Shown here: positions 17,449 through 33,553 of the stretch, in pieces | Layout: every line of letters begins with the position of its first letter | How positions within the stretch are numbered: the first letter of the stretch is position 1 | IMG/VR virus record: IMGVR_UViG_3300010883_000141 | Coordinates: 1 to 37,284 of that record | From: a virus | Reading direction: 5' to 3' (one strand) | Length of the DNA: 37,284 nucleotides | Notes under the pieces: generated by a model | The model's input: only the letters and a program-made list of their open reading frames with translations | Told to the model about the DNA's origin: nothing | Databases searched by the model: none | Translations under genes and position numbers: made by a program

Positions 17449-18192
17449 ATGAGTAAAGATTTAGAATTGTTCGCCGGTGACTCAGCCGGTCAAATGCCTA
17501 CTAAAGACATCGCATCAAGCCTAAGACGTTCTAGTCTTGACCGCGACACCTCTAATCGTTTTGTTGAAAGCCTTGATGGTCGCGAGTTGCTAAAGTTTGT
17601 TAGCCGCACTCAGAAATGGGTCTTTGGTAAAGACGGTGAACGACTAGGTGATGAAACTCTGGCAGTAAATCCTGGTTCGTTTGTTCACGGCATCTGCTGC
17701 TGGACGGGCGGCAACAACTCATCTTTTGTAGATGAAATTATGGTTCCTATTACAGCAGATCTACCGGAACAACCCGCTGATTGGGAAGCACAGGGAGAAA
17801 CTAACCGGCAGTATCAGGTTGATCTTCAAATTCTTGACGGAGAGTTTAAGAGTGAGCCGTTGCGCTTTCGTGTTAATTCCTACGGCGGAGTTACCGCGGT
17901 ACAAGACCTGGCTGGCAAACTAGCAGACAGACTCGAGGAAGACCACAACGGTTATTTTGTGCCGGTTGTAGAGTTAAGCTTTAGCACTTACAGTCACGCG
18001 ACTTGGGGCGAGCTTGGTAATCCTATTTTCGATGTTGTTGATTGGATGAATGCTGATGGCCAACATGAACCGGAAGGAGTTAAACCTAAAGCAGTGGAAA
18101 AGAAGGCGAAGGCAAAGGAAGTTAATCCTGAGCCTGCAAAAGATAGTGCAGAGCCGGAGGAGAAGCCTCCTCGCCGGCGTCGACGCGCATAA
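17449..18192 (+). CDS. Putative DNA-binding replication accessory protein
   Basis: A 247-residue protein (MSKDLELFAGDSAGQMPTKD) with no motif that fixes a function. Residues 1-200 look like a mixed alpha/beta domain (WVFGKDGERLGDETLAVNPGSF, then GYFVPVVELSFSTYSHATWG). The last 45 residues are a low-complexity Lys/Glu/Pro tail ending in six near-continuous Arg residues. In many phages the DUF2800 nuclease is followed by a single-stranded DNA-binding protein (DUF2815 or similar); position and charged tail fit that, but I cannot see a clear DUF2815 signature. Preceded by GAGGAAAAG and its own promoter. Confidence 0.5.
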   Translation: MSKDLELFAGDSAGQMPTKDIASSLRRSSLDRDTSNRFVESLDGRELLKFVSRTQKWVFGKDGERLGDETLAVNPGSFVHGICCWTGGNNSSFVDEIMVPITADLPEQPADWEAQGETNRQYQVDLQILDGEFKSEPLRFRVNSYGGVTAVQDLAGKLADRLEEDHNGYFVPVVELSFSTYSHATWGELGNPIFDVVDWMNADGQHEPEGVKPKAVEKKAKAKEVNPEPAKDSAEPEEKPPRRRRRA

Positions 18193-21156: not shown

Positions 21157-21720
21157 ATGTCATTCGAACTACTAAAGAAAACAGTCGTGACAGGTGCAGA
21201 TGGCATGGGCAAGTCCCAACTAATTTCTAACCTAATATCTCCACCTTTCAGTCTTCACTATCTTGGTCATGAAGGCGGTCCTATTGAATCCGCTTCCGAT
21301 GCGGCCCTGCGACTTTTATCCTTTGCAATCTCCCCTCCTGGTCTGCTTGATCGATGTTGTGCGGTTGATGATCCGATATACAGTACAGCGTTTGATCGCC
21401 AAGCTCAAGTTGACTGGAACTTCTATAGTGACTTCTTGCAAGAAGTTGACCCCCTTATTATTTTTGTGGACAACGATGAGCCAGCAGTCTGCGAGACTGC
21501 GAAAGCTCACAAGTCCCCCCAACTCCTTGCAGGAGTACAGGAAAAAGCACAACTAATCCGCGAACTCTACCATGAGCGAATAGCTTACTTGGAAGATGAT
21601 CTCGGTCTAGAAGTTTTTTACTATAACTGGCGGGTTGATCAAACTGCAAAGAAACTTATGCGCAGACTTTACCAGTCGCAAATTGTTTTATCCGAAGAGG
21701 ACTTCCCATGTGTGGATTAG
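21157..21720 (+). CDS. P-loop (deoxy)nucleotide kinase-like protein
   Basis: A 187-residue protein with Walker A GADGMGKS at residues 13-20 right after the first strand (KKTVVTG), as in thymidylate kinase-fold enzymes. RCCAVDDPIYSTAFDRQ near residue 67 parallels the DRxxYSxxVY region of nucleoside monophosphate kinases; LIIFVDNDEP is a following strand, and a Lys/Arg-rich lid lies near RVDQTAKKLMRRLYQ. Similar proteins in phages are dNMP kinases that phosphorylate a modified dNMP so it can enter DNA. It begins a five-gene set and overlaps the asparagine synthetase gene by 13 bases. The exact substrate cannot be read from sequence. Confidence 0.65.
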   Translation: MSFELLKKTVVTGADGMGKSQLISNLISPPFSLHYLGHEGGPIESASDAALRLLSFAISPPGLLDRCCAVDDPIYSTAFDRQAQVDWNFYSDFLQEVDPLIIFVDNDEPAVCETAKAHKSPQLLAGVQEKAQLIRELYHERIAYLEDDLGLEVFYYNWRVDQTAKKLMRRLYQSQIVLSEEDFPCVD

Positions 21721-23042
21721 TCGTTTTTACTAAACCCTCTTCTTCTACACAACAGGATCGGGCGCTCCAAGCGATTCGCCACCGCGGTTATATAACGACT
21801 GAAAACACTATTACTCATGGCCCATATACTTTCTGTCACACTCGACTTCCAATACAGGGTCTAGCGACTAAGTTTAATCAACCCATGAGAATTAACAGCG
21901 AGTCCGGGGTCTTTGCTGGCGAGGTATTTAACTTACCAGGTGAAAATGATGCAGAGGCCGCATTGACTGCGGTTACTACTGAAGGTCCGGAGATTGCAAA
22001 AACATTCGACGGGTTTTTTGCTATGGCCTACACTCGCGGCGACTTCATGTATGCACAAACAGACCACCTGGGCATTAAACCTCTTTACTACGATTTAGAA
22101 AACGGGATTATCGCTTCTGAGTTAAACGCGATTCGTGCTGCTACTGAGTCCAACTATAAACTAGATGAGCAGTTTTTTTCTACTGCTACTAAGTGGGGAT
22201 ATGATCCGTCTGGCAGAACACCTCTAAGAAACGTGCGGCGAATCCCGCCGGGGACTTTTCTAACCTTTCATCGCGGCAAGTTAATCGAGGCAAAAAAATA
22301 CTGGGACATCGGGACAGAGGCTCAGTTTTTTTCCTTGGACATCGTGCTCCGTGAAGCTGTTGAGCGTCGAGTTAGAATGTCAGACGTTCCCGTAGCTACT
22401 CTATGCAGTGGCGGGCTGGACAGTACGATCATCACACTGCTCGCTCAAGAAGTTAAACCGGATATTCAAGTGTTCCATATTGCTGATGACGGACCGGACT
22501 CCGCCGCGTTCGATTTACTGCGACATAGATTCCCTACAGATTCTATTCATACGGTAAGTCTATCCTCCGTTTCATTGTCCGATGCAATTATAGCCGCAGA
22601 CATTCCAGTCGACCTCGGTAGTGTTCAACCACAATACGCTCTAGCCTGTGCACTGAAAAGTGCGGGCGTTAAAGTAGTCCTATCGGGAGATGGTGCGGAC
22701 GAACTGTTTGGTGGGTATCGTCGCGCTAAAGAATATGATTCGCAGCATAGTGACACCTTTGTTGAACTTCCTCACTACCACCTGCCGCGGCTTGACGCAA
22801 TTATGATGAATCAGACTATTGAACTTCGTTCTCCGTTCCTAGCTCCCAAGGTCGTGCAGTGTGCCCTAGCTTTGCCATACCACAGCCGCACAGAAAAGCA
22901 GGCCTTAAAAATGTATTTTTGCGATCTAGTGCCGAGGCATATTCGGGACAGGGATAAACACCCTTTAAAAACCAAGGACGTGATTGAAGGGGGTATTCCT
23001 TACCGCCGTCGCATCCAAGAAATCTGGAGGAAAAATATATGA
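21708..23042 (+). CDS. asnB: Glutamine-dependent asparagine synthetase-type amidotransferase
   Basis: A 444-residue protein with two domains. The class II glutaminase starts with Met-Cys (Cys2 nucleophile after Met removal), followed by IRHRG, HTRLPIQGL and a GEVFNLPGEND segment. The synthetase domain has the PP-loop SGGLDS at 234-239, LSGDGADELFGGY at 325-337, ELRSPFLAP at 372-380 and a Lys/Arg-rich C-terminus (RDRDKHPLK). All catalytic motifs look intact, so it should hydrolyse Gln, adenylate a carboxylate and transfer ammonia. It is shorter than cellular AsnB (about 550). Asparagine or a carboxylated nucleotide could be the acceptor; the location among nucleotide-modification genes favours considering the latter. 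Confidence 0.85.
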   Translation: MCGLVVFTKPSSSTQQDRALQAIRHRGYITTENTITHGPYTFCHTRLPIQGLATKFNQPMRINSESGVFAGEVFNLPGENDAEAALTAVTTEGPEIAKTFDGFFAMAYTRGDFMYAQTDHLGIKPLYYDLENGIIASELNAIRAATESNYKLDEQFFSTATKWGYDPSGRTPLRNVRRIPPGTFLTFHRGKLIEAKKYWDIGTEAQFFSLDIVLREAVERRVRMSDVPVATLCSGGLDSTIITLLAQEVKPDIQVFHIADDGPDSAAFDLLRHRFPTDSIHTVSLSSVSLSDAIIAADIPVDLGSVQPQYALACALKSAGVKVVLSGDGADELFGGYRRAKEYDSQHSDTFVELPHYHLPRLDAIMMNQTIELRSPFLAPKVVQCALALPYHSRTEKQALKMYFCDLVPRHIRDRDKHPLKTKDVIEGGIPYRRRIQEIWRKNI

Positions 23043-23434
23043 GCATTGAACTGGTACGAGCGTTCCATGAAAAATTTGATTTAAACGTGGGCGACAACGA
23101 GTCGCAGTTACTAAATGATAACGACTTTGAATTCAGACACGACTTTTTACAAGAGGAGTTAAATGAGTTTCACCTCGCACAGGAAAACGGGGATCTCGTT
23201 GGATGTTTCGACGCTTTGCTTGATCTAGTGTATGTTGCTCACGGCACGGCATTAATGATGAATATTTCCCCAAAGCAGTGGAACGCCGGTATGGCTGTAG
23301 TCCAATCAGCTAACATGAGCAAAGTCCGTGCGGCGGATGCTAGTGAGTCCAAACGGGGTTCCTCTCTTGATGTTATTAAACCTAAAGACTGGACAGGACC
23401 GGAACCTGCTCTTAGAAATATTCTCAGCAATTAA
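23039..23434 (+). CDS. MazG-like nucleotide pyrophosphohydrolase
   Basis: A 131-residue all-helical protein. The metal-binding pattern is visible as FLQEELNEFHLA (EExxE-type) at about 36-46 and CFDALLDLVYVAHGTALMM at 60-78, the order and spacing of the all-alpha NTP pyrophosphatase superfamily (MazG, dUTPase-like, phage dCTPase-like). The C-terminus ends in an acidic and Pro-containing tail (DVIKPKDWTGPEPALR). In phages with modified bases such enzymes destroy the unmodified dNTP. The ATG overlaps the AsnB stop in ATGA. Confidence 0.75.
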   Translation: MSIELVRAFHEKFDLNVGDNESQLLNDNDFEFRHDFLQEELNEFHLAQENGDLVGCFDALLDLVYVAHGTALMMNISPKQWNAGMAVVQSANMSKVRAADASESKRGSSLDVIKPKDWTGPEPALRNILSN

Positions 23435-23447
23435 AAAAGGAAAAACC

Positions 23448-24725
23448 ATGTCAAATAAAAACAAATTAAAAGCGATTGGTCTTATTAGCGGCGTTGGTAC
23501 CCTCCTTATTGGCGCTAGACGTGCGGGCTTCGACATCGTAGGCAACATAGAGCCTAGACCTTATTATCGCGTAGGCGCTTTGCAGGAAGGCGAAAAGAAC
23601 ACCTTTGAAGAATACTTTGACGGCGCTCCAATTCGAAACACCTTTGCAGAACTCGAGGCAGAGATACAAGCGCAAATGAAAGGCGCTGATCTTGCTATGC
23701 TTCACAACGAATGCGGCAACGGTTCCACTCTTTCATTCAGTGGCAAAAACTGGAAAGAACGGCAGCTAGACGTCGGCGACTTTCCCTGGGTCTTTGAACA
23801 TCTAGCTATGACTTTTCCTAAAATTTTCGTATTAGATAACCTAGCCCCGAGTTTAAAAGCGATACCGCCAGAACGGTGGATTGAAGAGTTTCCGGATTAC
23901 TACATCTATCCTTTCCCCGTAGACAATGCACGATACGGAAACCCGCAGCGGTGTCGCACTCGAACCTTTTTTATTGGTGTGCACAAAGATTTAGACTTCG
24001 TTCCTTTCCCGGGCGAGGTTGATCATATTCCTACAACTCGTGACGTGATCGGAGACCTACAAGGTAAGGAGGGCACAATTCCAAACCATGACCCGCACGT
24101 CACAAACATTGTTGCGACGGGCTTTCGTTCCCCAATTCACGGAGAGTTTGATCGCAAACTTCTTTGGAGTGAAGTTAGTGATTATGTCTTAAACGATATG
24201 CGAGAGGCTCAAGTGTGGCCGTACTGGGCAGCAGACGGAACGCAGAAAGTAAAGATCGGCGTATACAAAGGAAAAAAAGACGGCGGTGTAAACACTCTAA
24301 ACGGCGGCGTAGGTTCATTCAATCCTTGGACGGGTCTGCCTTACAGTCTGCGAGAGCGTTTGCGGATTCAGGGTTTCCCGGATGATTTTATTTTGTACGG
24401 CACGAAGTTGGAAGAAGACGGTAGTTGGAACGCGATGCGAAACGGCAACATGACCCGACAGACCGGAAAAGGTATGCCCGTTCAATGGGCTACTTTTATC
24501 GCGCAGCAGATCGCAGATTATTACAACGGAGTAGAAACAAAACTTGTCCATACCAAACACCACTACACCCCGCCCATCGTTAGCGAAGCCAAACAGACGA
24601 TCTGTCGCGACCTCGGCGGGTACGGCAAAAACCAAGACCGGGCCTGTGAAGTTTGTTGGCTTCGAGAAAAGTGCACTATCCGGGACACAGCTCAAATCAC
24701 AATGAATTTCGAGGAAACAGAATGA
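23448..24725 (+). CDS. Divergent DNA cytosine-C5-methyltransferase-like protein with Cys cluster
   Basis: A 425-residue protein with the Dcm fold in order: motif I ISGVG (13-17), acidic IEP (34-36), motif IV at 87-93 reading NECGNGS (Cys89 conserved, but the usual PCQ is ECG), motif VI at 129-132 reading LDNL in place of ENV, motif VIII-like NPQRCRTRTFFIGV (165-178), the RIQGFPDDF segment (306-314) and motif X GKGMPVQWATFIAQQI (340-355). C386, C400, C403 and C409 give C-x13-C-x2-C-x5-C, like the WhiB iron-sulfur motif. The fold is clear, the reaction is not: it could be an ordinary methylase or act on a modified cytosine. AAAAAGG precedes the ATG at 23448. Confidence 0.75.
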   Translation: MSNKNKLKAIGLISGVGTLLIGARRAGFDIVGNIEPRPYYRVGALQEGEKNTFEEYFDGAPIRNTFAELEAEIQAQMKGADLAMLHNECGNGSTLSFSGKNWKERQLDVGDFPWVFEHLAMTFPKIFVLDNLAPSLKAIPPERWIEEFPDYYIYPFPVDNARYGNPQRCRTRTFFIGVHKDLDFVPFPGEVDHIPTTRDVIGDLQGKEGTIPNHDPHVTNIVATGFRSPIHGEFDRKLLWSEVSDYVLNDMREAQVWPYWAADGTQKVKIGVYKGKKDGGVNTLNGGVGSFNPWTGLPYSLRERLRIQGFPDDFILYGTKLEEDGSWNAMRNGNMTRQTGKGMPVQWATFIAQQIADYYNGVETKLVHTKHHYTPPIVSEAKQTICRDLGGYGKNQDRACEVCWLREKCTIRDTAQITMNFEETE

Positions 24726-25528
24726 CCTTTCCGTTCGAATACACGTTTAACACCTTGCGGATGGAACTCCTTTCTGCGCCGACTGTTACAACTTACAAAT
24801 GGCAAGGCGTTAACACTAATCCAAACGCTCTGCGGATGAAGGAGTTGCTTCACTCTACAGTTCAATACGACGTGCCTGACGACTTGGGGCTTTTGCAGCA
24901 AGAAGTTGAACCGTTTCTACCTTGGGCCGATAACCACTTTGAACAGGAACGGGTCAGTGGCCAACCTATTAACCCGGGCAAGACTTACAAGGAGTGGCGG
25001 TATCCGGCAAGTGCTTCCGAACATACGGGTTTCCAGTTCAATCATTCGTATGCTGAAAGGTACTGGCCCCAATACGCCGGCCAGACTTTAGGTGGAGCTA
25101 TTGAAGCTAGCAACTTAGTTAATTTAAGAATGCGGCCTCACCGCGGCATCCGTCATGACTACGGAGATCTGGGAACAGTTGTAAAACTACTAGCGAAGGA
25201 TTTAACTACCCGTCAAGCGTACCTGCCAATTTTTCATCCGGAAGATTTAATGGCCGCAGCAAAAAGCGAACGGGTGCCTTGTTCACTTGGGTATCACTTT
25301 ATCTGCCGCCAAGGTCGACTAGACGTGATGTACCCTATGCGCTCATGCGACTTCGTTAGGCATTTTCGCGATGATGTCTACTTGACTAGCCGACTCTTGC
25401 TTTGGGTAATTAAAGAGATGAAGTCCGTTAGCGAGGACCCGTCCGTTCAAGCTGTCGTACCTGGAAGGCTTATCATGCACATCACCTCCCTTCACTGTTT
25501 CGACAGTGATAACCTCGACGAACTTTAG
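24722..25528 (+). CDS. Thymidylate-synthase-family nucleotide C5-modifying enzyme (dCMP-type candidate)
   Basis: From the ATG at 24722 (overlapping the previous stop in ATGA) the protein has 268 residues. Thymidylate synthase landmarks are in order: SYAERYWPQYAG (109-120), DLTTRQAYLPIFHPEDL (160-176), catalytic Cys187 in RVPCSLGYHF, MRSCDFVRHFRDDVYL (206-221) and RLIMHITSLHCFDSD (249-263). In thymidylate synthase the position after RSxD...PF is Asn, which reads uracil; here it aligns with Asp218. T4 dCMP hydroxymethylase has Asp there, so dCMP is the likely substrate and hydroxymethyl- or methyl-dCMP the product. A further Asp217 precedes it. A true dTMP synthase is less likely. A longer in-frame start at 24653 is rejected because of overlap. 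Confidence 0.7.
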   Translation: MTFPFEYTFNTLRMELLSAPTVTTYKWQGVNTNPNALRMKELLHSTVQYDVPDDLGLLQQEVEPFLPWADNHFEQERVSGQPINPGKTYKEWRYPASASEHTGFQFNHSYAERYWPQYAGQTLGGAIEASNLVNLRMRPHRGIRHDYGDLGTVVKLLAKDLTTRQAYLPIFHPEDLMAAAKSERVPCSLGYHFICRQGRLDVMYPMRSCDFVRHFRDDVYLTSRLLLWVIKEMKSVSEDPSVQAVVPGRLIMHITSLHCFDSDNLDEL

Positions 25529-30616: not shown

Positions 30617-31090
30617 ATGTTGAGAACACTTCTACAAGATCAAGTTGACGCCTTTACTAAGTTAGGAGCAGCCGGGGGACAACTCATTCCCCGCTGCATT
30701 TTAGAAATCGCTGACTGTGAAACTACTAAAGCTGAACCCCTTCCAGAACTCTGCACTCCTAAAGAGTGTTTTGTGAACGCGGGCAAACTCGTCTTAGACA
30801 CTTCTTCTCTTTTGTATGTAGAAGGTTTTATTGTGACTGAAGACATGGCTTTTCCGATCCACCATGCTTGGGCGTATGATCCAGCGCGAGATATAGTTAT
30901 CGAAACAACTCTCCGAGCAAAAGGCCGCACTGTCCACTACCTTGGCAAAAAGTTTAATCAAGACCAGTTCATAAAGGAGTTAGCGCTTTGGGAATACTGG
31001 GGACTCTTTGACGGAGTAGGACCTAATCTAGATTTAATAAGTCGGCTCAGTCCAACCTTAAAGGACGAAATTAATGCGACCTTCTCGTGA
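30617..31090 (+). CDS. Conserved phage protein with Cys-His pattern
   Basis: A 157-residue protein. PKECFVNAGKLVLDTSSLLYVEGFIVTEDMAFPIHHAWAYDPARDIVIETTL has the order Cys, EG, His-Ala-Trp, Asp/Glu-x-T. This recalls small phage and plasmid proteins with a transglutaminase/papain-like arrangement of Cys and His, though shorter. Function unknown. It overlaps the dCMP deaminase gene by 17 bases. GAGG precedes the start. Confidence 0.6.
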   Translation: MLRTLLQDQVDAFTKLGAAGGQLIPRCILEIADCETTKAEPLPELCTPKECFVNAGKLVLDTSSLLYVEGFIVTEDMAFPIHHAWAYDPARDIVIETTLRAKGRTVHYLGKKFNQDQFIKELALWEYWGLFDGVGPNLDLISRLSPTLKDEINATFS

Positions 31091-31532
31091 CGTTTACTTT
31101 TTAAAAATGGCAGCCCTTGTTTCTTCCCGTGCAACCTGTCAACGTCGTGCGGTTGGATGTGTTCTTGTGGATTCGCATAACCATGTTCTTTCGACTGGAT
31201 ACAATGGCGTCCCCCAGGGTATTGCACACTGCTGGGACGTGCCCTGTGCCGGCGTTAATGCTCCGTCAGGTAAATCACTTGAAAAATGCATGGCAACTCA
31301 TGCGGAACAAAATGCGCTTCTTCAGTGTAAAAACACGAACGAGATTGGAACTGTATACTGTACTCACGAACCTTGTATACACTGCGCGAAACTTCTTATG
31401 AACACGGGAGCAAGTCGGGTCGTCTTCGCGAATCCATATCCTGGGGCCTCAAGAAAACTTTGGGAGCAGGTGCATCCAGCAAACACTTGGCAACATCGCG
31501 CTGACAAAGGAATAAATTTATGGCCCGTATAA
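31074..31532 (+). CDS. dCMP deaminase-family protein
   Basis: A 152-residue protein with both zinc motifs: HAEQNALLQC (H-A-E at about 77-79) and EPCIHCAKLLMN (P-C-x2-C), plus the family's RRAVGCVLVDSHNHVLSTGYNGVPQG. It should convert dCMP to dUMP. In a phage making a modified dCMP it could either supply dUMP for host thymidylate synthase or lower the pool of unmodified dCMP. AAGGA precedes the start, and its end overlaps the DNA polymerase gene by 13 bases. Confidence 0.85.
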   Translation: MRPSRDVYFLKMAALVSSRATCQRRAVGCVLVDSHNHVLSTGYNGVPQGIAHCWDVPCAGVNAPSGKSLEKCMATHAEQNALLQCKNTNEIGTVYCTHEPCIHCAKLLMNTGASRVVFANPYPGASRKLWEQVHPANTWQHRADKGINLWPV

Positions 31533-33553
31533 CTCACCAAAACTTAGTTCATATTGATATTGAAACTAGGTCTTTTGTAGACTTAAACGAACGGGGAGTT
31601 TATCTCTACGCTGATCCAAACTTTACAGATATTCTGTTTGTGAACTGGGCAGTCGGCGACAGCGACATTTTTAACTGGATACCCTGGCTTGAACCCTGTC
31701 CGCAGGAACTGTTAAATCTCATGCTTAATTCCAATTTTTTCTTTGCTGCTCACAATGCTCAGTTTGAACGACTAATTTTTAACAATGTTTCTACTGTAAA
31801 GTACGACACTCCTGTTGTCCCGCTCGAGCGTTGGTTCTGCACCATGTACCAGGCGGCAGTTAATAACCTTCCAGCAAGCTTGGCAGACGCGGGTCGAGCT
31901 TTACATACTAAAGCGCAAAAAGATGAACGCGGCAAGTTCCTCATCCGAACTTTATCTAAGCCCTGCGACGACGAAGGTAACTTCGATGAAACGCCTGAAC
32001 TGCTTACGGAGTTCAACGACTACTGTAGGCAAGATGTAGAAACTGAGCGGAACATTTCACTCATTTGCAGAATGCCTTCCGATAATGAAATGCTAGATTA
32101 TTGGGCGAGTGAAGTTGTAAATGACCGCGGCGTAAAAATAGATCGAGCCCTTGCAAGAAAGGCGGTAGGCCTGGCTGACGCTATTGCAGAAGACGCTGAG
32201 GAACAAATAACGAAGTTGACGGATGGCGCGGTACTAAAACCGCGAGGGGCTAAACTTACCGCCTGGGTCTTTAATCGTATGGATGAAAAAGGCCAACGTA
32301 TGATGACAAAGCAGGTGAAAGACGGGGACACAGGAAAGTTCACTAATAAAACAACCCTGGACAGAAACGCTCGCGAGCTTTTAATGGACTACGAAGGACT
32401 AACGGGATTAAGTCGCGAAGTCGTTGAACTAGCGGAGTCCGTTGGCAGCGGCTCTGTGGCGAAATTTAACGCAATGCTGAAAGGTGTACAGGCCGATGAT
32501 CGCGTACGAGGATCTTATATCTGCAGTGGTGCACCCGCCACGGGTCGATATTCCGCTAGACGTCTCCAGCTGCACAACTTCTCCCGCGACACCTATAAAA
32601 ATCCGGAGCCTGTCATTCAAAAGTTTATTGAAACCGGAGAACTGCCAGACTCACCTATGCTAGCGATGAAACGACTACTCCGTCCAGCTCTTATGGCGGA
32701 AGAAGGTAAGACTTTTGTCTGCTCGGACTGGAGTGCTATCGAAGGTCGTGCCCTACCTTGGTTAACTTTAGATTCGCGCTGCGAAGAAAAGCTAGAAATC
32801 TTTCGTCGGAACGAATGTGTTTACCTAGCGACAGCTTCTGATATCTATCGCGAAAAAATTACAGAAAAAAAAGACCCACGTCGCCAGGTCGGAAAAGTTG
32901 CCGAGCTTGCCTTAGGTTACCAAGGAGCCGCCGGATCGTTTTTAGTAATGGGAGCAAACTACGGGGTTGACCTTCCGGCTCATGAAGTCAACAAAATCGT
33001 ACACGACTGGCGAAAAGTAAATCCCGGCATTGTAGCGTTCTGGTACGACTTGGAAAAGCAAGCGATGAAAGCAGTTGACAAACCCGGTACAGTTTTTGAA
33101 TCGGGTCGCGTTAGTTTTTACTTCCATGAACATCTCTGCGGCGGCACGTTATGGATTAAGCTACCGTCTGACCGTTTACTTTCCTACACGGACTGTAGAT
33201 TGGAGTGGGATTCAAAATGGGAAAAGTATTCATTGACTTCTTTAAACGCTACGGTGAAACCAAAAGCCGGCGCAAAAGAATGGACACGGCGCGGACTGTA
33301 CGGCGGACTTCTTGCAGAAAACATTACTCAGGCCGCTTGCGGAGATCTACTTCGCGAAACTATTCGCGCTCTTGTTGCTGACGACTTTCCGGTTGTGGCT
33401 CATACGCACGACGAAACCATGTTGGAGGTCAACACTGCTCAGGCGGATGAGTATTTAGAAATGCTTGAAGAGTATATGCTTTTCGTTCCGGAGTGGGCCA
33501 CAGGCTTGCCCCTCGCGGTAGAAAGTTGGATCGGCCCACGCTACCGCAAATAA
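31520..33553 (+). CDS. Family A DNA polymerase with 3'-5' exonuclease
   Basis: A 677-residue protein. The DnaQ-like exonuclease begins at once (VHIDIETRSF, Asp13 and Glu15), with later NAQFERLIFNN and a YCRQDVETER motif (third acidic site). The polymerase domain shows FVCSDWSAIEGRALPWL (motif A, near residue 403), the O-helix-like RRQVGKVAELALGYQGAAGSF (near 455-470) and HTHDETMLEV (motif C, near 630). This is the phage-type family A enzyme without a 5' nuclease domain; it probably replicates with the primase-helicase at 13495. Confidence 0.9.
   Translation: MARITHQNLVHIDIETRSFVDLNERGVYLYADPNFTDILFVNWAVGDSDIFNWIPWLEPCPQELLNLMLNSNFFFAAHNAQFERLIFNNVSTVKYDTPVVPLERWFCTMYQAAVNNLPASLADAGRALHTKAQKDERGKFLIRTLSKPCDDEGNFDETPELLTEFNDYCRQDVETERNISLICRMPSDNEMLDYWASEVVNDRGVKIDRALARKAVGLADAIAEDAEEQITKLTDGAVLKPRGAKLTAWVFNRMDEKGQRMMTKQVKDGDTGKFTNKTTLDRNARELLMDYEGLTGLSREVVELAESVGSGSVAKFNAMLKGVQADDRVRGSYICSGAPATGRYSARRLQLHNFSRDTYKNPEPVIQKFIETGELPDSPMLAMKRLLRPALMAEEGKTFVCSDWSAIEGRALPWLTLDSRCEEKLEIFRRNECVYLATASDIYREKITEKKDPRRQVGKVAELALGYQGAAGSFLVMGANYGVDLPAHEVNKIVHDWRKVNPGIVAFWYDLEKQAMKAVDKPGTVFESGRVSFYFHEHLCGGTLWIKLPSDRLLSYTDCRLEWDSKWEKYSLTSLNATVKPKAGAKEWTRRGLYGGLLAENITQAACGDLLRETIRALVADDFPVVAHTHDETMLEVNTAQADEYLEMLEEYMLFVPEWATGLPLAVESWIGPRYRK

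Follow-up and report, generated by a model that had tools for sequence, protein, structure and literature searches.

The virus record IMGVR_UViG_3300010883_000141 comprises 37,284 bases; this whole stretch was analysed and is named the window in the following. Five tightly packed genes between positions 21157 and 25528 code for a kinase-like protein, an AsnB-type protein, a MazG-like protein, a Dcm-like protein and a homologue of thymidylate synthase (TS). In our judgement, which is close to evenly balanced, these genes constitute a phage cassette for the hypermodification of cytosine, combining a TS step with management of the nucleotide pool and with tailoring of an amide type. The window also contains head, portal, terminase, primase and lysis genes; as no tail genes past the tail terminator were identified among its annotated genes, it is probably a partial genome. 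The cassette consists of:

21157-21720, plus strand: P-loop kinase-like protein, putative deoxynucleoside monophosphate (dNMP) kinase for the modified nucleotide, 187 amino acids (Walker A motif, synteny, phrog_761 with E 0.02)
21708-23042, plus strand: AsnB-type protein with class II glutaminase and ATP-pyrophosphatase domains, 444 amino acids (Pfam Asn_synthase, PF00733, 7e-37; GATase_7, PF13537, 2e-9)
23039-23434, plus strand: MazG/PRA-PH-like nucleotide pyrophosphohydrolase, putative dCTPase role, 131 amino acids (PF01503, 5.5e-12; phrog_671, 1e-24)
23448-24725, plus strand: divergent protein of predicted C5-methyltransferase fold (Dcm-like) with a C-terminal Cys4 motif, 425 amino acids (PF00145, 6e-12; structure model and Foldseek)
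24722-25528, plus strand: protein of the TS superfamily, predicted dCMP type, 268 amino acids (phrog_160 'thymidylate synthase', 5e-24; aligned residues)

The packing described in the first-pass annotation proved to be exact: the kinase-like and AsnB-type genes overlap by 13 bases, AsnB and MazG-like share an ATGA at 23039-23042, a gap of 13 bases (23435-23447) precedes the Dcm-like gene, and a second ATGA (24722-24725) joins the latter to the TS gene.

Active sites of the TS, Dcm-like and AsnB-type proteins

In phages, the TS has one of three alternative partners: (i) a second TS-fold protein, (ii) a Dcm-like protein plus AsnB, as in the window, or (iii) AsnB alone, in a group which we call T4-like. 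This label and the dCMP deaminase of the group were read from gene order and translations and not from a formal classification. The Pfam match of the window TS stays under the cut-off (0.001). Its alignment with E. coli ThyA, T4 gp42 and RB69 ORF048 equates Cys187 with C146, Asp210 with D169 and Asp218 with N177, and thus bears out the Asp that had been reported at the specificity position. Positions 177 and 169 are Asp in all 170 TS relatives (50 Dcm-associated, 59 second-TS-associated and 61 AsnB-only). Besides Asp177, the residues Cys146, Arg166, Asp169 and His207 are invariant in the 50 and 59 members of the first two groups; Asp177, Cys146 and Asp169 occur in 61/61 of the AsnB-only members. 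Position 147 is Ser or Thr, i.e. not His. The family has a Phe in place of Tyr209, and nothing aligns to the C-terminal folate cap (ThyA residues 257-262; in nearly all relatives also 263-264). Due to these two features, the active site differs from those of both TS and gp42.

Among solved structures, the family profile is closest to the dCMP hydroxylase AfhB of phage HY126 (9iqu/9iqc, 39 bits), followed by MilA (34 bits) and T4 gp42 (25 bits), and RB69 ORF048 aligns better than gp42 does. The strict mapping onto T4 is therefore unsupported or at best undecided: judged from these alignments, the family appears to be at least as similar to the RB69-type 5-hydroxy-dCMP synthase as to gp42. In Mosigvirus, to which RB69 belongs, such a TS homologue produces 5-hydroxy-dCMP (PMC13390438). 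With the RB69 and HY126 enzymes the window TS has in common the missing cap, Phe209 and Asp177; in contrast, RB69 has an Asn at position 169, which we infer to be linked to the use of flavin adenine dinucleotide in enzymes of this type. Because the loss of the cap and Phe209 are common with RB69 and Asp169 is common with T4, both 5-hydroxymethyl- and 5-hydroxy-dCMP are possible products. A separate ThyX is encoded in 9/44 relative records, which argues that the cassette TS is probably not the thymidylate maker of the phage. In a set of 106 phage records, many proteins of cultured phages labelled thymidylate synthase (even ThyX) fall into the Asp177 family; these are probably dCMP-modifying enzymes.

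The divergent Dcm-like identity given in the first-pass annotation stands, as the PF00145 match (46 bits) exceeds the cut-off. The AlphaFold2 model (mean predicted local distance difference test, pLDDT, of 90.5) matched M.HaeIII, M.HhaI and CmoX (8yf3) in Foldseek, which suggests a C5-methyltransferase fold. Like M.HaeIII and M.HhaI, the protein possesses a Cys nucleophile (Cys89, invariant across the family) and the motif VIII QxRxR. In contrast to these enzymes, motif IV is HNECG in the window and HPECG in the family instead of the ordinary PCQ, the ENV of motif VI is D(D/N)L (DNL in the window) with Asp for the catalytic Glu, and Lys341 falls on the motif X Asn in the M.HaeIII alignment. 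The Asp of motif III is lost and the Phe of motif I is not conserved; both hold the adenine of S-adenosylmethionine (SAM). A further difference is a C-terminal four-Cys element, C-x13/14-C-x2-C-x5-C (24597-24690), which is found in most but not all members and may be a binding site for zinc or for an Fe-S cluster. By these residues the Dcm-like protein is predicted not to be an ordinary C5 methylase.

Motif X is Lys in 44/44 members linked to AsnB. The residue preceding the catalytic Cys is Glu or Asp in the AsnB-linked proteins, with one exception whose N-terminus is missing or misaligned (L145); it is Lys, Ser or Pro in 7/7 members without AsnB that have a readable motif and are beyond short fragments. 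L122 retains the Glu, but with its 4 kb this fragment is too short to look for AsnB. This covariation speaks for a pathway common to the Dcm-like and AsnB proteins. A plain single-sequence query of viral contigs gave 0 matches, whereas the alignment-based query gave 56 loci. The C5-methylases of plasmids are ordinary remote matches only.

The AsnB family shows no variation in its ATP-pyrophosphatase motifs, SGGLDS and GDGADE, and retains Cys1. The glutaminase site of the window protein contains Cys1, Arg49, Glu76 and Asp98, whereas Asn74 of the oxyanion hole is replaced by Ala; the residue roles are those of E. coli AsnB. The term "intact", applied earlier to this protein, was therefore an overstatement. 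Position 74 is Val or Ala across the whole family, and Arg49 is also missing in most proteins of the T4-like group.

Recurrence of the partners in three architectures

The Dcm-like family comprises 43 clusters at 70% identity, across which TS, Dcm-like and AsnB recur together; this co-recurrence exceeds chance. Whole-record searches of 48 Dcm-like-bearing records found TS in 47, AsnB in 41 and the second TS-like protein in 0. The distance between Dcm-like and AsnB genes is within 3 kb in 46/46 cases. Starting from AsnB, a TS is linked in 72/82 loci, the remaining ones being mostly short or cut at an edge, and a second TS-like protein is found in 0/82. The AsnB-seeded search also uncovered the third architecture, in which TS, AsnB and dCMP deaminase are adjacent; TS and AsnB are at most 200 bases apart in 47/61 AsnB-only loci and on the same strand in all. 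None of 36 T4-like records with TS and AsnB contains a C5-methyltransferase. Uncultured T4-like examples of this arrangement are L161, L166, L170, L200, L204 and L220.

In isolate phages, the order is kinase, MazG-like, "hypothetical", TS, dCMP deaminase and PolA. Three observations identify the "hypothetical" protein as the second TS-fold protein: its AlphaFold2 model (pLDDT 92), the top Foldseek matches, which are all TS-like (best 9iqu, E 1.4e-5), and an invariant Cys, Arg and Asp with TS spacing. The hhalign similarity of this family to TS is weak. It lies just upstream of the Asp177 TS and is mostly labelled hypothetical in cultured Gordonia, Serratia, Pseudomonas, Brevundimonas and Streptomyces phages (e.g. 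L002:8033-8848, L003:5168-5956, L007:5120-5929, L009:5060-5977, and others). The cultured phages PMBT14, Serbin, Emalyn and Polewnik possess the gene. Among the viral contigs found with TS, 50 have only the second TS, 10 only the Dcm-like protein, 17 neither and 0 both (Fisher p = 8e-6; this test ignores descent). On the TS tree, the four states require 14 parsimony changes compared to about 75 after shuffling; they switch repeatedly, and at several points of the tree the Dcm-like/AsnB members, including the window, are nested next to members with the second TS.

The kinase-like protein has the Walker A sequence GADGMGKS and aligns with the kinases of the syntenic cassettes in relatives. These two features argue for the kinase-like identity proposed earlier; its profile similarity, to the thymidylate kinase family phrog_761, is weak, and we regard it as a putative kinase. 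The MazG-like identity could be confirmed, as the protein passes the PF01503 cut-off (46.4 versus 21.3 bits). Near AsnB/Dcm-like genes, other loci contain DUF6378 (PF19905) proteins (L018:3723-4154, L033:3164-3451, L120:9107-9433) or a weak DUF1599 match (L098); these may be alternative nucleotide pyrophosphohydrolases.

In relatives, a dCMP deaminase is kept adjacent to TS. The first-pass annotation had missed the corresponding part of the conserved neighbourhood in the window:

31074-31532, plus strand: dCMP deaminase, conserved companion (phrog_174, 2e-41)
31520-33553, plus strand: family-A DNA polymerase, conserved companion (phrog_17, 1e-84)

Upstream of the cassette, 17449-18192 is weakly similar to the phage nucleotidyltransferase family phrog_9528 (1e-10) and has no Pfam match. 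A contig of a Saprospirales metagenome-assembled genome (MAG) combines in one run (L148:3095-12241) ThyX, ribonucleotide reductase, dUTPase, kinase, MazG-like, an extra DNA methylase, Dcm-like, AsnB, TS and dCMP deaminase; these reading frames were named from their translations, and Dcm-like, AsnB and TS were also found by profile searches.

Proposed pathway and alternative explanations

The folds, the catalytic residues, the linkage of TS, Dcm-like and AsnB, and the exclusion between Dcm-like and second TS are directly supported here; for substrates, cofactors and product we propose the following. At the level of the nucleotide, the Asp177-type TS would modify dCMP at C5, giving 5-hydroxymethyl- or 5-hydroxy-dCMP, and the P-loop kinase would raise the modified nucleotide towards the triphosphate. 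The MazG-like enzyme would remove dCTP, and the dCMP deaminase would feed the dUMP/dTTP side. The Dcm-like protein would probably act on DNA, its Cys attacking C6 and Lys341 holding a carboxylate-bearing cofactor or co-substrate. The AsnB-type enzyme would use ATP to activate a carboxylate of the modified base and would turn this into an amide, with ammonia from glutamine or with another amine. The resulting cytosine, bulky and with an amide at its C5 substituent, would block restriction.

The direction of the pathway towards cytosine, as envisaged earlier, agrees with the universal Asp177 and with the MetaGPA experiments on phage metagenomes, in which contigs with Asp177 TS, PF01503 and dCMP deaminase, together with a carbamoyltransferase, showed an enrichment for modified cytosine (PMC8670742). 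Our cassette resembles these contigs, which along with CmoX/CmoY are its closest known counterparts, in the three proteins and in the non-His residue at position 147; in contrast, it has no carbamoyltransferase, and this step was rejected after 0/94 records contained the enzyme. The terms AsnB and Dcm-like are absent from the main text of the MetaGPA paper (PMC8670742). With gp42, gp56 and gp1 of T4 the cassette has the same logical roles in common, and Asp177 and Asp169 are found in both gp42 and the window TS; it differs in the absent folate cap, in a pyrophosphohydrolase of the MazG/PRA-PH type and in the additional AsnB and Dcm-like proteins.

Several points weigh against the proposed pathway. 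AsnB requires a carboxylate, and neither 5-hydroxymethylcytosine nor 5-hydroxycytosine has one. As the T4-like phages possess TS and AsnB without a Dcm-like protein, the pathway does not account for the carboxylate in these phages, which is its weakest point; for the same reason we dropped the Dcm-like protein as a general carboxylate supplier for AsnB. If C5 of the base is already substituted, the Dcm-like enzyme would be prevented from an ordinary transfer to this position. The missing oxyanion Asn74, and Arg49 in T4-like members, make glutamine hydrolysis by AsnB uncertain. Finally, no close homologue of AsnB or of the Dcm-like protein was found in 50,697 phage records, nor a named isolate with either protein of this family. 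The amide step assigned earlier to AsnB and the Dcm-like protein jointly is supported for AsnB by its linkage to TS; for this step the Dcm-like protein is not essential, as the T4-like phages lack it. Since scores of uncultured viruses contain these partners and the cultured phages that were searched do not, the final base has probably not been described before. With less than even confidence, we propose more specifically that TS and AsnB build an undescribed amide-bearing cytosine, together with a remodelled, possibly non-SAM enzyme of C5 fold or with none, and that elsewhere the second TS-fold protein replaces the Dcm-like/AsnB arm, so that Cys-C6 chemistry would occur on two unrelated folds.

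For the pairing of a Dcm-like with an AsnB-like protein there is now a precedent, the nearest one known: the CmoA-CmoX-CmoY system of Synechococcus phage S-B43, described in December 2025, which produces 5-carboxymethylcytosine and the glycine amide of this base (PMC12783734). In both systems, a protein of C5-methyltransferase fold adjoins an AsnB-type enzyme, here with a Cys1 glutaminase domain; some CmoY-type ligases beside CmoX also retain this domain (PMC12783734). The motif X residue is positively charged in both: Arg350 of CmoX contacts the carboxylate of carboxy-SAM (Cx-SAM), the engineered M.MpeI N374K has a Lys there (PMC12783734), and so does our Dcm-like protein. We consider it unlikely, albeit favoured by this Lys, by the fold match to CmoX and by the glutaminase-bearing ligases, that the Dcm-like protein moves a carboxymethyl group from host-made Cx-SAM onto C5 of cytosine in DNA, that AsnB amidates it to 5-carbamoylmethylcytosine, and that TS serves another purpose. 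CmoA, reported for the majority of CmoX contigs though not for every one (PMC12783734), was found neither in 48 Dcm-like and 36 AsnB-only phage records nor in 2 MAGs with such contigs (TIGR00740; the E. coli control was positive). A phage-encoded CmoA is thereby ruled out in the 84 records; one sub-threshold match (15.8 bits, G106) was taken as noise. Moreover, the SAM-adenine residues of motifs I and III are not conserved, a PECG-type motif and Lys stand in place of SPPC and Arg350, which define CmoX, Asp replaces the catalytic Glu, an Asp177 TS and a MazG-like protein belong to the cassette although this route does not need the TS present in 47/48 records, and AsnB also occurs without the Dcm-like protein. 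By this comparison, the cassette may work like CmoX/CmoY, but would lie outside that family as defined.

Still less probable is a route in which the TS itself attaches a carboxylate-bearing nucleophile to the C5-methylene of dCMP, e.g. glycine (compare MnmEG in tRNA), and the resulting nucleotide is amidated by AsnB, with the Dcm-like or second TS-like protein as alternative accessories. The adjacent, co-oriented TS and AsnB that alone form the T4-like core would fit, as would the capless active site with Phe209, unlike that of TS and gp42; the idea is drawn from chemical reasoning, and we know of no TS-family member that adds such a nucleophile to dCMP. We doubt even more that two unrelated functions are combined, namely a T4-like hydroxymethyl-dCMP pathway, to which TS, MazG and kinase alone would correspond, and auxiliary metabolic genes for an ordinary methylase and an ordinary asparagine synthetase. 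AsnB does match the asparagine synthetase equivalog TIGR01536 at 1e-58, but its 199.6 bits are under the cut-off of 267.1, the Dcm-like protein reaches only 19.7 of the 100.7 bits required by TIGR00675, and the active sites are remodelled and the linkage recurs in many lineages. A role of the cassette in the nucleotide pool or in RNA, instead of in DNA base modification, is very improbable: all members bind nucleotides or pyrimidines and a chemistry like that of host tRNA is conceivable, but the set of MazG-like protein, kinase and dCMP deaminase, the polymerase neighbourhood and the MetaGPA link to modified DNA (PMC8670742) favour DNA.

Implications for phage DNA modification

If the proposed hypermodification cassette is real, it would represent an amide-forming branch of cytosine modification in phages, with a TS step at the nucleotide level as its start. 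It would explain a large group of phage proteins annotated as "thymidylate synthase", "asparagine synthetase" or "hypothetical", and would provide enzymes able to place functional groups on cytosine in DNA. The second TS-fold family identified here is conserved in cultured Gordonia, Serratia, Pseudomonas and Brevundimonas phages and is open to immediate testing. For the phages themselves, the unusual form of cytosine would probably let their DNA hide from bacterial defences.

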